From Planctomycetota bacterium (GTDB taxonomy: Bacteria; Planctomycetota; Phycisphaerae; Phycisphaerales; SM1A02), in contig VGYB01000009.1 in assembly GCA_016873115.1 (NCBI GenBank), positions 1 through 55,672 on the forward strand: a stretch of 55,672 nucleotides of DNA, written 5' to 3'. Below, in pieces: positions 27,971 to 35,892 of this stretch. A model generated the notes under the pieces. It saw only the letters and a program-made list of their open reading frames with translations. It was not told the origin of the DNA and did not search any database. Positions within the stretch are counted from its first letter, which is position 1. Each line of letters opens with the position of its first letter. The position numbers were made by a program, and so were the translations under genes.

Positions 27971-28630
27971 ATGAGCAGCGGATGGTGGGTGCACCAGTGG
28001 TATCAGGATTACGGGGCTTGGATGGTGGCTGGCTACGCCCTCATCGTGATCTTCAGCATCACGCTGCACGAGTTGGCACACGGCTGGGCCGCGATCTGGC
28101 AAGGCGACCGGACGCCGATCGAGTGCGGCCACATGACCTGGAATCCGCTGGTGCACATGGGGTGGCCTTCACTGCTGATGTTCGCGGTCGTGGGCATCGC
28201 CTGGGGCTTGATGCCGGTCGATCCCTCCCGCATGCGGCATGGCCGGCGCAGCATGGGCTGGGTGGCGTTGGCTGGCCCGGCGATGAACATGCTCATCGCG
28301 TTCATCGCCCTGACTGCGCTTGCGCTGGCTGTGGCGAAGAGCCTTCCGGTCGGCGAACGGACAACGAAACTGCTCTGGATCGCCGGCTACATCAATCTTG
28401 CGCTGGCGATCCTCAATCTCCTGCCCATACCGCCCCTCGATGGTTCGCGCATCGCCGCAGGCGTGTCGATCAGGGCCTACTCGTTCTTCAACCGTCCAGA
28501 GGTCGCGGGCGCATCGATCTTCGTGCTGCTGGCGGTGGTCTTCCTTGGAGGCGGCGACCTGATCTTCGAGGCAGCCATGTCAGGCGTGAAGTGGTACATG
28601 GCGGTTGCGGAGCGATGGCTGAGCACCTGA
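27971..28630 (+). CDS. M50-family site-2-protease-type membrane metalloprotease
   Basis: This 219-residue membrane protein has the zinc motif HELAHG at about residue 36-41 within a hydrophobic helix. The third ligand lies in NLLPIPPLDGSR near 158-169. Five or six hydrophobic segments are visible. There are no PDZ or CBS domains, so it is the compact rhomboid-like-sized M50 type (FwdX/YwhC-like) rather than RseP. The substrate is unknown. It is convergent with the amidohydrolase gene, 11 bases apart. Confidence 0.85.
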   Translation: MSSGWWVHQWYQDYGAWMVAGYALIVIFSITLHELAHGWAAIWQGDRTPIECGHMTWNPLVHMGWPSLLMFAVVGIAWGLMPVDPSRMRHGRRSMGWVALAGPAMNMLIAFIALTALALAVAKSLPVGERTTKLLWIAGYINLALAILNLLPIPPLDGSRIAAGVSIRAYSFFNRPEVAGASIFVLLAVVFLGGGDLIFEAAMSGVKWYMAVAERWLST

Positions 28631-28641
28631 AGCGCAGCCGG

Positions 28642-30150
28642 TCAGCTTGATCGATGCACGATCTCGCCGCCGACGATCGTCATCAGGACGCGCGGCGGTG
28701 CATGCACCCAATCGGCGCTGCGCGGATCGCGATCGAGGATCGTGAGGTCGGCGGGGGCACCGGCTTGCAAGGTGCCACAACCGGCGGGGAACCCGAGGGC
28801 GCGTGCGGCCTCGTGCGTGTAGGCGGTGAGGGCCTCGGTGGGTGTGAGCGATTGTTCGGGCACCACGACCGCACCGATGCGGTCGATCCCGGTGATCGCC
28901 GCGCGCATGCCGGCCATTGGGCAACAGGTCACGATCGGCCAGTCGCTGCCGAAGACCAGCCGCGCGCCGGCGCGCGCGAAGTCACGGAAGCGGAAGAAGC
29001 GATCCATGCGCGAGGCGCCAAGGCGTGATGGCGCGCTCGGAGCATCGTCTGCCTTGTGCAGCGGCTGCATGCTGATGATCCTGCCAGCGCAGCGTGCGAT
29101 GTCCTCCGCGCGTGCGGTCTGCGCGTGCTCGATCCGGCCGACGCGCCGTTCATCGCGCTCGAGTGCATCGAGCGCGGCCGTCAGGGCGGCATCGCCGATC
29201 GCGTGCATGCTCGGGCTGAGGCCGTTGGCCAGGACATGCTCCGCCCAGTCGCGCAGCAGGCCCTCGGCGGCGAGCTCGGTCCAGAGCCCGCGCGTGGACG
29301 GTTCGTCGGCGTACGGCGCATGCATCCGCGCCGTGCGCGAGCCGAGCGTGCCGTCGATGAAGCTCTTGTAGCCGACCACCCACAGGCGATCGGTGCGCTC
29401 GAAGCTCACGCCCTGCGTGACATCGAGCGGCCAGTCGCGGTCGAGCAGCGTGACGGCCATGCGCAGCGGAAGGTCGTGACGGCATGGTGCGAGCACATGC
29501 TCGAGGTCAACGCCGTACTCCATGCTCCCCACGCCGGTCACGCCCAGCGCGTGAAGGTGGCGCACGGCAGCATCGAGCGCCCTGCGGCGCCCATCCACGC
29601 TCGGCGCGGGGATCGCCGGCTTGGCAATGTGCCACGCGGCGGCCTCTCGCAGCAGTCCCGTCGGGGAGCCTGCGGCATCGCGCACGATTTCGCCACCACC
29701 TGGCGTGGACGAGAGATCGAGCCGTGCCATCACGGTGCGGCTGACGACGCACGCATGGTGATCCATGCGCCACGCCACGACATTCCGATCACCGAGGCCA
29801 TCGAACCACGCTGCCGTGGGCTGCTCGCCGCCCCAGCGATCCTCGTTCCAACCCTGTGCAAGCAACCAGCGCCCGGGCTCGAGCGTGGCGTGCCGGGCCC
29901 GGACCCGGCGCTCGACCTCGGCGCGGCTCGTGCAGGACGCCAGGTCGAGCATCTCGAGCCCGAGCCCACCCAGAATCAGGTGCAGGTGGCCATCGATGAG
30001 GCCCGGCACGGCACAGGCGCCCTCAGGCAAGCCGATGGTCGGTGCGCCCTGAGCGCGTTCGCGGATCGAGCCATCCGCCCAATGCAGGCCACGACGCTCA
30101 CCCGAGGTTGGGCACCACACCAACGTGTCGATCGAGCCAGCGTCCGCCAT
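28642..30150 (-). CDS. YtcJ-type amidohydrolase
   Basis: This metal-dependent amidohydrolase has 502 residues. The metal motif appears as VPGLIDGHLHL at about 48-58. GWNEDRWGG is typical of the YtcJ subfamily. HAIGDAALTAALDALE supplies another His, and FGSDWPIV near 400 the Asp. A composite beta-sandwich (residues 1-50 and the C-terminal 60) flanks the barrel. No signal peptide is present, so it is probably cytoplasmic. The substrate is unknown; family members act on N-acyl or cyclic amides. It is divergent from a lipoprotein gene over just 17 bases. Confidence 0.88.
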   Translation of the reverse strand: MADAGSIDTLVWCPTSGERRGLHWADGSIRERAQGAPTIGLPEGACAVPGLIDGHLHLILGGLGLEMLDLASCTSRAEVERRVRARHATLEPGRWLLAQGWNEDRWGGEQPTAAWFDGLGDRNVVAWRMDHHACVVSRTVMARLDLSSTPGGGEIVRDAAGSPTGLLREAAAWHIAKPAIPAPSVDGRRRALDAAVRHLHALGVTGVGSMEYGVDLEHVLAPCRHDLPLRMAVTLLDRDWPLDVTQGVSFERTDRLWVVGYKSFIDGTLGSRTARMHAPYADEPSTRGLWTELAAEGLLRDWAEHVLANGLSPSMHAIGDAALTAALDALERDERRVGRIEHAQTARAEDIARCAGRIISMQPLHKADDAPSAPSRLGASRMDRFFRFRDFARAGARLVFGSDWPIVTCCPMAGMRAAITGIDRIGAVVVPEQSLTPTEALTAYTHEAARALGFPAGCGTLQAGAPADLTILDRDPRSADWVHAPPRVLMTIVGGEIVHRSS

Positions 30151-30155
30151 CGCCC

Positions 30156-30162
30156 TATCCTA
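30156..30162. promoter_or_regulatory. almost fully overlapping divergent -10 elements
   Basis: The sequence ctatcctag carries TATCCT on the plus strand (30156-30161), six bases before the ATG at 30168. On the minus strand it carries TAGGAT (30157-30162), six bases before the ATG at 30150. Both transcripts would be leaderless, and two polymerases could not occupy the site at once. Confidence 0.6.
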
Positions 30163-30167
30163 GAAGC

Positions 30168-30884
30168 ATGATCGCCCGACGAATCGTGCTCCACGCCTCG
30201 CTCCTTGCCTCGATGGCCACCATCGCCTGCAGCGATGCCCAGCCCAAGCCGCCTGCACCCGCGGGCCCCAAGCCGCCAGCGGCGAAGGCGCCAGAGGCCG
30301 CGGGCCAAGCCGCTGCTCCGACCGTGGCAGGTGCAGCGACGAATGCTGCGCCGAGTGCAGAACCATCGTGGCAATTGAGCAGCGCAACGAGCGACGCCAC
30401 CGTCATCGAAGTGGGCGGGCTGAGCTTTCCCAAGCCCACGACCTGGCAGTGGCAGCTGCCCACGATGCAGTTCCGCACGCTGCAGTACACCGTTCCCGGC
30501 CCCGGTGGAGAGGACGGGGGTGCCGCTGAACTCGTGGTGAGCCTCTTCGCAGGCGGCGACGGCGGCCCAATCGATGCCAACATCGAACGATGGGTGCGGC
30601 AGTTCCGCGCGGAGGACGGAGGGGCGGTCGTGCCGGTGCGCGACGACATCACGGTCGCCGGCATGAAGGTGGCACTCATCGAACTCAAGGGCGCGTACCA
30701 GGGCATGGGTGCGGCTGCACCGCGACCGGGCCAGATGCAGTTCGGCGCGATCGTGCAAGCGCCCGGGCGCAATGTGTTCCTGCGGCTGAATGGCCCCGAA
30801 CGCACGGTCGAGCTGCATCGCCAGGACTTCCGTGCCATGGTTGACGGGATGCGTGCCGATCTGGCCGCGCCGGCGGCTCCCTGA
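30168..30884 (+). CDS. putative exported lipoprotein, unknown function
   Basis: This 238-residue protein has a basic N-terminus, a short hydrophobic stretch and a Cys at residue 21 (ASMATIAC), a near-lipobox. A ~50-residue Ala/Pro/Lys-rich linker follows. A ~170-residue folded part then begins around EVGGLSFPKPTTWQW and runs through ELVVSLFAGGDGGPIDANIERWV to the C-terminus. The layout, a thin-shell domain after a disordered tether, suggests an envelope-bound protein. No family is recognised with confidence. Confidence 0.75.
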   Translation: MIARRIVLHASLLASMATIACSDAQPKPPAPAGPKPPAAKAPEAAGQAAAPTVAGAATNAAPSAEPSWQLSSATSDATVIEVGGLSFPKPTTWQWQLPTMQFRTLQYTVPGPGGEDGGAAELVVSLFAGGDGGPIDANIERWVRQFRAEDGGAVVPVRDDITVAGMKVALIELKGAYQGMGAAAPRPGQMQFGAIVQAPGRNVFLRLNGPERTVELHRQDFRAMVDGMRADLAAPAAP

Positions 30885-30912
30885 ACGCGTCGAGCTTGGC
30901 GACATCACGACA

Positions 30913-30934
30913 GCGGGCCGACCGATCGGCCCGC
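30913..30934. terminator. hairpin between the lipoprotein and superoxide dismutase genes
   Basis: A perfect 9-bp GC-rich stem (30913-30921 with 30926-30934, loop ccga) lies between convergent genes ending at 30884 and 30958. U-tracts are weak. Confidence 0.5.
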
Positions 30935-30957
30935 CTGCCTTGTGCGTGGAGCTCGCC

Positions 30958-31605
30958 TCAGCGCTTCCCGGCGGCGTCGAATCGCCTGGAGACCTCGTTC
31001 CAGTTGACCACGCCCCACCAGGCGGTGATGTAGTCGGGGCGGCGGTTCTGGTAGTTGAGGTAGTACGCGTGTTCCCAGACATCCAGGCAGAGGATCGGCG
31101 TGCCTTCGCAGTCGCCGAGGCCAGCCATGAGCGGGTTGTCCTGATTCGGGGTCGAGCAGACGGCGAGCGAGCCGTTGGGCATCGCGCACAGCCACACCCA
31201 GCCTGAGCCGAAGCGGCCCGTGCCAGCCGCCGCGAACTTCTTCTTGAAGTCATCCATCGAGCCGAAGGCCGCGTTGATCGCCTTGGCGAGCGCATCGCTG
31301 GGCTGGCCGCCCGTGCCCGGGGCAGCCATCAACGACCAGAACATGGTGTGGTTCCACGCACCGCCACCGTTGTTGCGCACCGGGTTGCGCAGGCCATCGG
31401 GCAGGGATGCGATGCGGCGGGAGAGTTCGTCGAGCGAGAGCCCGTGCAGGTCGGCATGGGGCTCGAGCGCTGCATTCAGGTTCGTGACATACGCATTGTG
31501 GTGCTTGGTGTGATGGATGTTCATCGTGCGCGCATCGATGACGGGTTCGAGCGCGTTCTCGGCGTACGGCAGCGGGGGAAGGGTGAACGGGTAGTGGTTG
31601 CTCAT
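30958..31605 (-). CDS. superoxide dismutase, Fe/Mn family
   Basis: This 215-residue enzyme dismutates superoxide. The four metal ligands are in [21 protein letters not shown] and [11 protein letters not shown]. The start of the mature fold, [13 protein letters not shown], is typical. No signal peptide is seen, so it is cytosolic. The outer-sphere residues mix Mn-type (GGG before AWNH) and Fe-type (WNHTMFW) features, so metal choice is left open. The gene should be leaderless, with TAGACT six bases before its ATG. Confidence 0.94.
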
Positions 31606-31611
31606 GGCCGC

Positions 31612-31617
31612 AGTCTA
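31612..31617 (-). promoter_or_regulatory. -10 element, leaderless start of the sod gene
   Basis: TAGACT on the minus strand, then six bases, then the ATG at 31605. The same hexamer precedes tRNA-Thr and two other genes in this window. Confidence 0.55.
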
Positions 31618-31669
31618 GGCCGCGCGGTGTGGCAGCGTGTCGTTGCTTGCGGCCGCGCGTCCGGGGAGG

Positions 31670-32527
31670 TCAGCGCAGCTCGAGCCCGTCGAAGCCGAAC
31701 TCGACTCCCTGGGGTAGTTTGCGCGCATCGCGCTCGTGGAGGATGTCGTGCGTCATGTGCACGAGCACGGTGCGAGCCGCTCCGATGCGGGCGGCAGCAT
31801 CGATGGCCTGGTCGATCGTGAGGTGCGTGGGGTGCGACCTGAACCGCAGCCCATCAAGCACGAGCGTGCGGGTGCCCATGAGGTGGTTCCACGACTCGGG
31901 TGGGATGCCGTTCACGTCCGTGGCATAGACGAGTGGGAAGAGCGGCCCCTGTCCATCGAACCTCCAGGCCAGGATCGGCAAGCGGCCATGCAGCATGGGT
32001 ACGGCGGTGGCACGGATCCCGTGGCAATCGAGCGACGCACCCGGTGCGATCCGGATGGCGGCAAGGTCGGCGACCCAGCTGTCGTTGGTGTTGCGGGCGT
32101 GGTCGAAGATGTGCGCGTAGATCCGGCACACCTCGTCGATGGTGCGAGCATCGCCGATCACGGGGATCGAGGTCCCCATCAGGGCGTTGTAGCGACGCAC
32201 CTCGTCCAGGCCCCACACATGGTCGACATGGCTGTGCGTGAGGAGGATGTGGTCGGCGCGATCGATGCGGTGTGCGAGCGCCTGCTGACGGTGGTCGGGG
32301 CCCACATCCAGGAGCACGGTCCGTCGCACTCCCCGGGCATCGGTGAAGCGCAGCATCGCCGAGGTACGCAGCCTGCGATCACGGGGATCGACGCTGGTGC
32401 AGGTCGCGCAGTCGCATCCGATCAGTGGAACGCCAGCCGAGGTTCCCGTGCCCAGGAGCGTGAGCACGGCGTGGGGGTCGCCCGGGGTGTCAAGCTTCGG
32501 CTGCTTCGGTCGATCGCGCTCACCCAT
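31670..32527 (-). CDS. MBL-fold metal-dependent hydrolase (PhnP-like)
   Basis: This metallo-beta-lactamase-fold protein of 285 residues has the metal motif THSHVDHVWGLD (HxHxDH). The front is TLLGTGTSAGVPLIGCDCATC, whose Cys pair plus a later Cys is the structural-zinc pattern seen in the PhnP-like/phosphodiesterase branch. MLHGRLPILAWRF and VYATDVNGIP supply later ligands. Substrate is unresolved; cyclic phosphodiesters are typical of this branch. The start overlaps the thiE stop by eight bases, so the two are coupled. Confidence 0.85.
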   Translation of the reverse strand: MGERDRPKQPKLDTPGDPHAVLTLLGTGTSAGVPLIGCDCATCTSVDPRDRRLRTSAMLRFTDARGVRRTVLLDVGPDHRQQALAHRIDRADHILLTHSHVDHVWGLDEVRRYNALMGTSIPVIGDARTIDEVCRIYAHIFDHARNTNDSWVADLAAIRIAPGASLDCHGIRATAVPMLHGRLPILAWRFDGQGPLFPLVYATDVNGIPPESWNHLMGTRTLVLDGLRFRSHPTHLTIDQAIDAAARIGAARTVLVHMTHDILHERDARKLPQGVEFGFDGLELR

Positions 32528-34581: not shown

Positions 34582-35025
34582 TCAGCCAGGGTCCTTGCCC
34601 GTGACGACTGGCATGCTGGCCTTCGTCCAGCCCTCGAGCCCGCCGCGCAGGGTGTAGACGCTGTCGTAGCCCAGTTCGATGAGCCGCTTGCTCGCGGCGG
34701 GGCCGAGCACATCGTTGGCGTTGGTGCCGTAGACCAGGATCGCGACCGACTTGAACTCGCCGAGTTCGGGAACGGCCACATCGTTCATCGTGGGCATCGG
34801 CATCGATCGCGCACCCTTGATGTGGCCAGCCTCGTACAGCGCCGTGGGGCGGGGATCGATGATCACGACGCGCTTGGACTTGCCCAGAAGCCCCTTCTCC
34901 CGCGTCCCCAAGGCAAGCACCTCGTCGGGGCGGACCAGCGTGAGGTTCTTGTCACTGGTGCTGCGCTCGCACGCTGACAGGGGAAAGGACAGGACGAAAC
35001 AGGCAGCGAGGATTCGAAGGGTCAT
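34582..35025 (-). CDS. rhodanese-like lipoprotein lacking the catalytic Cys
   Basis: This 147-residue protein has a lipoprotein signal: hydrophobic residues 3-15, lipobox LSAC with Cys at 19. It is followed by one rhodanese domain. Structural motifs are present (VVIIDPRPTALYEAGHIKGARSMP and YDSVYTLRGGLEGWTKASMPVV, shown in part). At the active-site loop the usual VVYC-SGNRS reads ILVYGTNANDVLG, with Gly in place of the Cys. Sulfur transfer is therefore unlikely; a binding or structural role is inferred. It is divergent from the DsbD-domain gene over 18 bases. Confidence 0.85.
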   Translation of the reverse strand: MTLRILAACFVLSFPLSACERSTSDKNLTLVRPDEVLALGTREKGLLGKSKRVVIIDPRPTALYEAGHIKGARSMPMPTMNDVAVPELGEFKSVAILVYGTNANDVLGPAASKRLIELGYDSVYTLRGGLEGWTKASMPVVTGKDPG

Positions 35026-35030
35026 GCGGA

Positions 35031-35037
35031 TAGTGTA
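35031..35037. promoter_or_regulatory. overlapping divergent -10 elements
   Basis: Plus strand TAGTGT (35031-35036) lies seven bases before the ATG at 35044. Minus strand TACACT (35032-35037) lies six bases before the ATG at 35025. Five base pairs are shared. Both transcripts would be leaderless. Confidence 0.6.
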
Positions 35038-35043
35038 TGGAGC

Positions 35044-35892
35044 ATGTCGAGCAAGCTCCTGATGTGTCTGGCGTTCGTGGCCGCCGTGCTCGCGCACGGC
35101 GACGCTCCGCTTGCCGCGTCCGAGTCTCGTCCGCAATCGGTGTCCGGGGCGGAGGCCCCGCCGTCACGGCCGGCCAAGCAGCATGTCGAGGTCGCGTTGG
35201 CCCCGGTCATCCTGCGGACACCGGACGGACGGCGCTTCCTCGATGTGCAGTTCGCGATCGAGGCCGGATGGCACATGTACTGGCGCAATCCCGGAGACAG
35301 CGGCCAGCCGCCGCGCCTGGACTGGACACTTCCGGTTGGGTGGTCCGCGGGCGAGCCGATGTATCCCGTTCCCAATCACCTTCCGGACGATGAAGACACC
35401 CTGGCGTTCGAGCGTTCGCTTCGGCTTCTGGTTCCGGTGACCGCGCCCAAGTCGTGGTCTGGTGATGCGGTGATGGTGCGCTTGAACGCGCAGTGGATGA
35501 CCTGCAAGGAATTCTGCGTGGTCGAGCGTCAATCGGTCCAAGCCGAATTGGTCGAGCGGGAGGGATCGATGCCCGAGGGCTATCCCGAACCTGCACCGCC
35601 CGAGGTGTCGGCCAGGCTCCAAGGGGAGGGCGAAGACCGGGTGCTCGTCATCGACGCCTCGGCGCTCGGCGGCACGGTCCGGTGGTTCCCCGACACCCGC
35701 CCGGGGGTGCGCTTTCCCAGCGAGCGCATGCTGCCGATGCCGGGCGGGAGGATCGAGATTCCCGTCCGGATCCGCGTCGTGGATGCGCCAGACCGGCGTC
35801 CCATGGTCCGGGGGATGGTCGTGATCGATGCCGGCAGTGGGGTCCGGGCCCTTGACATCGCTGTCCCCGGGTCTGCCCCGGCGGCAAAGTGA
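35044..35892 (+). CDS. exported stand-alone DsbD N-terminal-type domain protein
   Basis: This 282-residue exported protein has a signal peptide at 1-25 or so (LLMCLAFVAAVLAHGDAPLAAS). The remainder resembles the periplasmic alpha domain of the thiol:disulfide interchange protein DsbD: WHMYWRNPGDSGQPPRLDW, GWSAGEPMYPVPNHL, and a redox pair in WMTCKEFCVVE (CxxxC). The membrane and thioredoxin domains of DsbD are absent and no such gene is adjacent. It probably passes electrons to envelope partners, perhaps the CPVC redoxin encoded 89 bases downstream. Confidence 0.82.
   Translation: MSSKLLMCLAFVAAVLAHGDAPLAASESRPQSVSGAEAPPSRPAKQHVEVALAPVILRTPDGRRFLDVQFAIEAGWHMYWRNPGDSGQPPRLDWTLPVGWSAGEPMYPVPNHLPDDEDTLAFERSLRLLVPVTAPKSWSGDAVMVRLNAQWMTCKEFCVVERQSVQAELVEREGSMPEGYPEPAPPEVSARLQGEGEDRVLVIDASALGGTVRWFPDTRPGVRFPSERMLPMPGGRIEIPVRIRVVDAPDRRPMVRGMVVIDAGSGVRALDIAVPGSAPAAK

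Follow-up and report, generated by a model that had tools for sequence, protein, structure and literature searches.

A probable bidirectional promoter built on one shared -10 element between two divergent, putatively leaderless genes of a Phycisphaerales bacterium

The planctomycete genome considered here (2.36 Mb in 87 contigs) carries, within the window, that is, the whole stretch of 55,672 nucleotides that was analysed, a pair of divergent genes whose start codons are separated by only 17 bp. On the minus strand lies an amidohydrolase gene (28642-30150), encoding a protein of 502 aa with an Amidohydro_3 domain (Pfam PF07969, E = 1.4e-70) and starting with ATG at 30150. Its open reading frame is slightly longer (505 aa), with an in-frame TAG at 30162-30160, four codons 5' of the ATG. 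As this stop codon is part of the TAGGAT motif described below, and no ATG, GTG or TTG occurs between the two, a start upstream of 30150 is ruled out. The closest named relatives, found in three records, share 84-86% amidohydrolase identity. The genes flanking the pair encode an M50 peptidase on one side and a superoxide dismutase on the other.

The second gene, on the plus strand (30168-30884), encodes a lipoprotein of 238 aa. Its N-terminus, MIARRIVLHASLLASMATIAC, following the ATG at 30168, is signal-peptide-like as judged by eye, and this start is identical within the genus. A longer open reading frame with a GTG start (30042-30884) was considered for the lipoprotein and rejected, since the signal-peptide-like stretch begins at the ATG at 30168 and the genus keeps both this ATG and the -10 element in front of it. 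Searches of Pfam and NCBIfam with the lipoprotein gave zero matches. Its AlphaFold model (mean pLDDT 79.1) returned 31 Foldseek matches in the PDB at E ≤ 0.001, including 3lyd, PsbP, Mog1, LpqN and DcrB; these had E values from 1.9e-6 to 9.0e-4, with query TM-scores of only 0.31-0.44. A PsbP/Mog1/LpqN/DcrB-like fold is therefore predicted from the model, a name at the fold level only, which leaves the pairing of the two genes unexplained. Relatives of the lipoprotein were found in 34 of the 61 genomes searched. The amidohydrolase/lipoprotein pair is also present in records L132, L199 and L136, titled Bacteroidia, Limnohabitans and Chitinophaga, respectively, and these titles look misassigned.

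The spacer between the two genes, CGCCCTATCCTAGAAGC (30151-30167), comprises at once the putative promoter core and the entire intergenic region. The divergent start codons occupy 30150-30148 (minus strand) and 30168-30170 (plus strand), the A of each being 30150 and 30168, so that the block from ATG to ATG can be written as CAT-CGCCC-TATCCTA-GAAGC-ATG, a mirror-symmetric frame of the type CAT-N5-TANNNTA-N5-ATG. At its centre lies the symmetric core TATCCTA (30156-30162), which conforms to TANNNTA on both strands. It contains a candidate -10 hexamer for each gene: TATCCT (30156-30161, plus strand) for the lipoprotein and TAGGAT (30157-30162, minus strand) for the amidohydrolase. The 17-bp gap reported in the earlier note agrees with the sequence, as do the overlap of the two hexamers by five of six bases (30157-30161) and the distance of six bases from each hexamer to its own ATG.

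In bacteria, bidirectional promoters with a shared -10 element were reportedly described by Warman et al. in 2021. In such promoters the divergent starts lie 7-25 bp apart, most often 18 (PMC10268837, PMC12825309), and the commonest form has reciprocal -7T/-11A bases together with a -18T opposite the A of the other start (PMC10268837). At the spacer, a start-to-start distance of 18 bp is predicted if both mRNAs are leaderless. With starts assumed at 30168 and 30150, the -7T and -11A bases are reciprocal, being T30161 and A30157 in the plus direction and T at 30157 and A at 30161 in the minus direction. A T is found at -18 in both directions (plus strand at 30150, minus strand at 30168), because the two ATGs are 18 bp apart. 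The near-symmetric -10, the predicted 18-bp distance, the reciprocal -7T/-11A pair and the -18T are thus features that the site has in common with the shared -10 promoters of the literature. Unlike in those promoters, both of its predicted starts coincide with the A of a start codon, and the core makes up the whole intergenic region. The spacer site also differs from them in having no detectable -35 element, in being kept through a genus and in being known from sequence alone.

Each half of the site was compared with the start regions of the genome at large. The sample comprised 455,672 bp, namely the window and 20 further stretches of 20 kb. Counted without gene calling, TANNNT preceded ATG 48 times at a distance of 6 nt and 46 times at 7 nt, an approximately sevenfold enrichment over the baseline at distances of 0-5 and 12-24 nt (mean 6.7). 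Before GTG the counts were 13 and 11 at 6 and 7 nt, against 3-12 at other distances, and before TTG there were 4 and 4 in the same sample, with no excess. When only open reading frames of at least 100 aa were considered, 81 sites with TANNNT 6-7 nt before the ATG were obtained. A corresponding count in the loci of relatives (383,957 bases; open reading frames of at least 100 aa) gave 22 at 6 nt and 28 at 7 nt, and at most 12 at each other distance between 0 and 19 nt. The excess at 6-7 nt spans many different hexamer interiors. These counts point to TANNNT 6-7 nt before ATG as the signature of leaderless genes, and to widespread leaderless initiation in this Phycisphaerales genome.

The two hexamers of the spacer were scored with a weight matrix of the four flexible positions against 77 other leaderless -10 sites of the genome. 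TATCCT fell at the 77th percentile and TAGGAT at the 73rd. Given these scores and the genome-wide excess of TANNNT, either side of the shared site, taken alone, would be an ordinary leaderless promoter. The earlier note had placed the -35 regions of both promoters inside the opposing coding sequences, which holds as geometry; as to a signal there, no excess of TTG was seen at the expected -35 place upstream of the 81 leaderless -10 sites of the genome. A sigma-70 scan of positions 28000-32000 for a TTGACA-like -35 element 16-18 nt upstream likewise gave none, and this is a weak result, as shuffled sequences averaged only 0.4. This class of leaderless TANNNT promoter may work without a -35 element.

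The spacer site is present in eight of the nine genomes of the genus; in the ninth (G006), neither the amidohydrolase nor the lipoprotein was matched. Among the eight, 14 of the 17 spacer bases are invariant, compared with 16 of 64 third codon positions in the two adjoining genes (8/32 on each side), a difference with a Fisher p of 2.5e-5 that is only indicative, since the genomes are related. Variation is confined to three positions: the first base of the spacer, which differs in G005 only; the centre of the core, changed in G002 (TATGCTA); and the base two places beyond the core, which differs in three genomes. The TA...TA of the core, and with it the TANNNTA pattern, is unchanged in all eight.

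These substitutions bear on whether TAGGAT might act in translation rather than transcription. The stretch TAGGATAGGGCG-ATG on the amidohydrolase side holds AGGA 7 nt before the ATG, a plausible distance for a Shine-Dalgarno sequence, in which case the amidohydrolase would have a conventional, longer leader. In G002 the hexamer becomes TAGCAT, which lacks AGGA and yet retains TANNNT, and this speaks against a Shine-Dalgarno role. Relatives carry TAGCAT, TACGAT or TATCGT at the same place, and the genome-wide excess at 6-7 nt is likewise one of TANNNT with many interiors. A Shine-Dalgarno sequence is thus a most improbable explanation of the motif.

The frequency of the whole arrangement was also determined. 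The exact pattern CAT-N5-TANNNTA-N5-ATG was found at a single place in the genome (2.36 Mb), and at two, 30148-30170 and 35023-35046, when five or six bases were allowed on either side. A broader search for CAT-N0-14-TANNNTA-N5-6-ATG gave 12 strand-hits in the genome, four of which (two sites, each on both strands) had the 5-6 spacing, a modest excess. The earlier note had proposed a search for the same arrangement in related genomes. Within the genus (nine genomes), 16 sites of the N5-6 type were found, as compared with two of N9-10 spacing and none at all of the reversed pattern, whereas in 52 genomes outside the genus the 76 sites found were barely above the controls (51 reversed, 50 with N9-10 spacing). 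Because the excess outside the genus is only slight, the device is not claimed to be widespread. The exact N5 pattern was matched in 21 of the 61 genomes. The pattern CAT-N5-ATNNNAT-N5-ATG, tried as another control, was rejected, as it occurred in 46 of 61 genomes and was therefore commoner than the pattern itself; we think that this excess perhaps comes from the common coding triplets (ATC, GAT) that it contains. It is conservation, rather than the modest excess of counts in the genome, that makes the shared site a convincing candidate.

The second shared core, TAGTGTA (35031-35037), lies in the block CAT-GCGGA-TAGTGTA-TGGAGC-ATG, between a gene for a rhodanese-domain protein with a lipoprotein-like start (ATG at 35025, minus strand) and a gene for a DsbD_N-domain protein (ATG at 35044, plus strand). 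The pattern is found in eight of the nine genus genomes; in G004, which is without it, the DsbD_N protein (P0004) was unmatched. Its plus-strand hexamer TAGTGT scores below all 77 compared sites and is a poor match. The two N5-6 sites, the only ones in the genome, are 4.9 kb apart, and they are on the same contig in G005 and G008 as well.

A near-palindrome conserved between divergent genes might instead be an operator, at which a repressor or activator would control both genes. The core occurs among relatives as TATCCTA, TATGCTA, TATCGTA and TACGATA; its interior varies and only TA...TA is constant, as is expected of a -10 element and not of an operator. The distance from the core to the ATG is moreover the genome-wide distance of leaderless -10 elements, and the genome has no more than two copies of the pattern, which differ in their interiors. 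An operator is for these reasons very improbable, and the preferred interpretation of the core continues to be that of a -10 element.

A more serious alternative is that the promoter acts in one direction. TATCCT would then drive the lipoprotein gene only, TAGGAT would be accidental, and the amidohydrolase transcript would start inside the lipoprotein gene. If the element were used for the lipoprotein only, the base following its hexamer would be free, and this seventh base was hence examined in relatives. A total of 110 loci was inspected (30 and 80 from two sources, partly from the same organisms); the divergent pair was present in 80, or 67 after merging identical upstream DNA. An in-frame lipoprotein ATG with TANNNT 6-8 nt before it was found in 32 of the 67, although in several relatives the ATG was chosen for the preceding TANNNT and not all such starts are signal-peptide-like; the 35 loci without such an ATG stayed outside the count. 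The persistence of this element, together with an amidohydrolase ATG whose distance from it ranges from 4 to 143 nt, is what one-way use would lead one to expect.

The seventh base tells otherwise. It was A, which completes the reverse -10, in 23 of the 32 loci, and in 16 of 25 when the seven genus loci from which the idea came were left out. Elsewhere A followed the hexamer at about 5% of sites (4 of 77 in the genome; 2 of 50 before other genes in the loci of relatives); the 77 sites used here and for the weight matrix leave out both hexamers of each shared site. As relatedness inflates such locus counts, the loci were clustered by amidohydrolase identity (70%). This gave 33 clusters, 14 of them with a lipoprotein -10, and A was the majority base in 7 of the 14, with one further cluster split 2 and 2. 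At the background rate, the binomial probability of 7 in 14 is 2.5e-6, and that of the 6 in 13 left without the genus is 2.5e-5.

Retention of the symmetric base followed the position of the amidohydrolase start. Where the amidohydrolase ATG was near the element (mostly 4-13 nt), the base was present in 8 of 9 clusters, the split cluster included, and where the ATG was at least 20 nt away it was present in none of 5. The contrast has a Fisher p of 0.003, rising to 0.02 when the split cluster is placed with those lacking the base, with a cut between near and far that was set post hoc. Exceptions to the trend are L052, in a near cluster without the symmetric A, and L143, which has the A with its amidohydrolase ATG 23 nt away. 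The shared site can be compared with the natural situation in L166, where 31 bp separate the two ATGs and each gene has a TANNNT of its own 6 nt before its ATG. Retention of the symmetric base with nearness of the ATG would be expected if selection maintained two-way use. With the typical -10 score of TAGGAT and the separate elements of L166, it renders the one-way alternative unlikely, and use of the element in both directions is favoured. In most related clusters with a symmetric element the amidohydrolase ATG lies 10-13 nt from it, so that a leader of 4-7 nt is predicted in several of them, and the exact dual-leaderless form would be limited to the genus, L164 and the L173 group.

We consider, with a probability of roughly 0.8, that the spacer is a bidirectional promoter in which one near-palindromic -10 element, TANNNTA, serves two leaderless mRNAs, probably with low, parallel expression of both genes. 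The housekeeping sigma factor would be able to bind the TANNNTA core both ways round. Transcription in the plus direction would begin at A30168 and give the lipoprotein gene an mRNA with no leader, and transcription in the minus direction would begin at A30150 and do the same for the amidohydrolase gene. With the starts 18 bp apart, the -7T/-11A bases of one direction would pair with the -11A/-7T bases of the other, and the start A of each direction would supply the -18T of the opposite promoter. Ribosomes would then initiate at the AUG that forms the 5' end of each mRNA, with no Shine-Dalgarno sequence involved. The proposals of the earlier note that divergent leaderless promoters share one -10 site, and that they form a minimal symmetrical promoter, are supported by genome statistics and by conservation.

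The same note held that only one polymerase could use the site at a time, and with this we agree, as overlapping -10 elements exclude joint occupancy. From this it had drawn a mutually exclusive switch, in which competition for the single -10 would alternate the two genes, one being off when the other is up. Strong activation of one direction can indeed repress the other in E. coli (PMC12825309). In the five bidirectional promoters of that organism covered there, however, repression of one direction occurred only when the other was strongly activated, and basal activity was too low for more than little competition (PMC12825309). Moreover, neither of the two flanking genes (M50 peptidase, superoxide dismutase) encodes a regulator. 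The switch is thus unsupported and quite improbable. Under the proposed bidirectional promoter, occupancy would be exclusive at any moment, and the likely outcome would be low and parallel expression of both genes, not switching.

Leaderless promoters of the TANNNT type are said to be found in Mycobacterium tuberculosis. They have been described in Deinococcus (PMC12340547) and, in a bacterial survey, in Actinobacteria (PMC3160421); the present sites resemble them in the genome-wide enrichment of TANNNT some 12 nt ahead of start codons and in the high GC content of the genome. The words 'divergent', 'bidirectional' and 'Planctomyc' are absent from PMC12340547, and 'divergent' and 'Planctomyc' from PMC3160421, as judged by a word search. 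The single planctomycete of one comparative study was assigned a leaderless or S1 signal (PMC5397173). Among open-licence papers, no mapped leaderless starts or promoter motifs were found for Planctomycetes, and no promoter with two leaderless products was found described. The nearest case found was lysG/lysE of M. tuberculosis, which is similar in having divergent genes with overlapping promoters, one start being leaderless, and different in its 108-bp spacer and its control by a regulator; there, a second, distinct promoter gives rise to the leaderless lysE transcript (PMC5648196). Bidirectional promoters with a shared -10 and leaderless promoters of the TANNNT type are both known already. 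The site described here is real and conserved, and it is probably a bidirectional promoter of this known type in a predicted dual-leaderless form.

A broader proposal is put forward tentatively, as a possibility that we hold at somewhat below even odds. Two start codons and the -10 element between them may, in Phycisphaerales, have become fused into one mirror-symmetric unit (CAT-N5/6-TANNNTA-N5/6-ATG), which would serve a pair of genes both as promoter and as signal for the start of translation and would be kept whole by selection. If so, the symmetric base would be retained as long as the starts lie near each other, and each gene would have a -10 of its own once they are apart. A conserved gene pair would then be tied to one initiation site with neither -35, leader nor ribosome-binding site.

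Bidirectional promoters are known from transcript maps, and whether their symmetry is kept for two-way use can be asked here from evolution alone, because the symmetric base goes with the nearness of both start codons. The counts around start codons suggest that leaderless initiation, with no -35 element to be seen, is common in this Phycisphaerales genome, and the putative promoter of 17 bp illustrates how small a control region for two genes can be.
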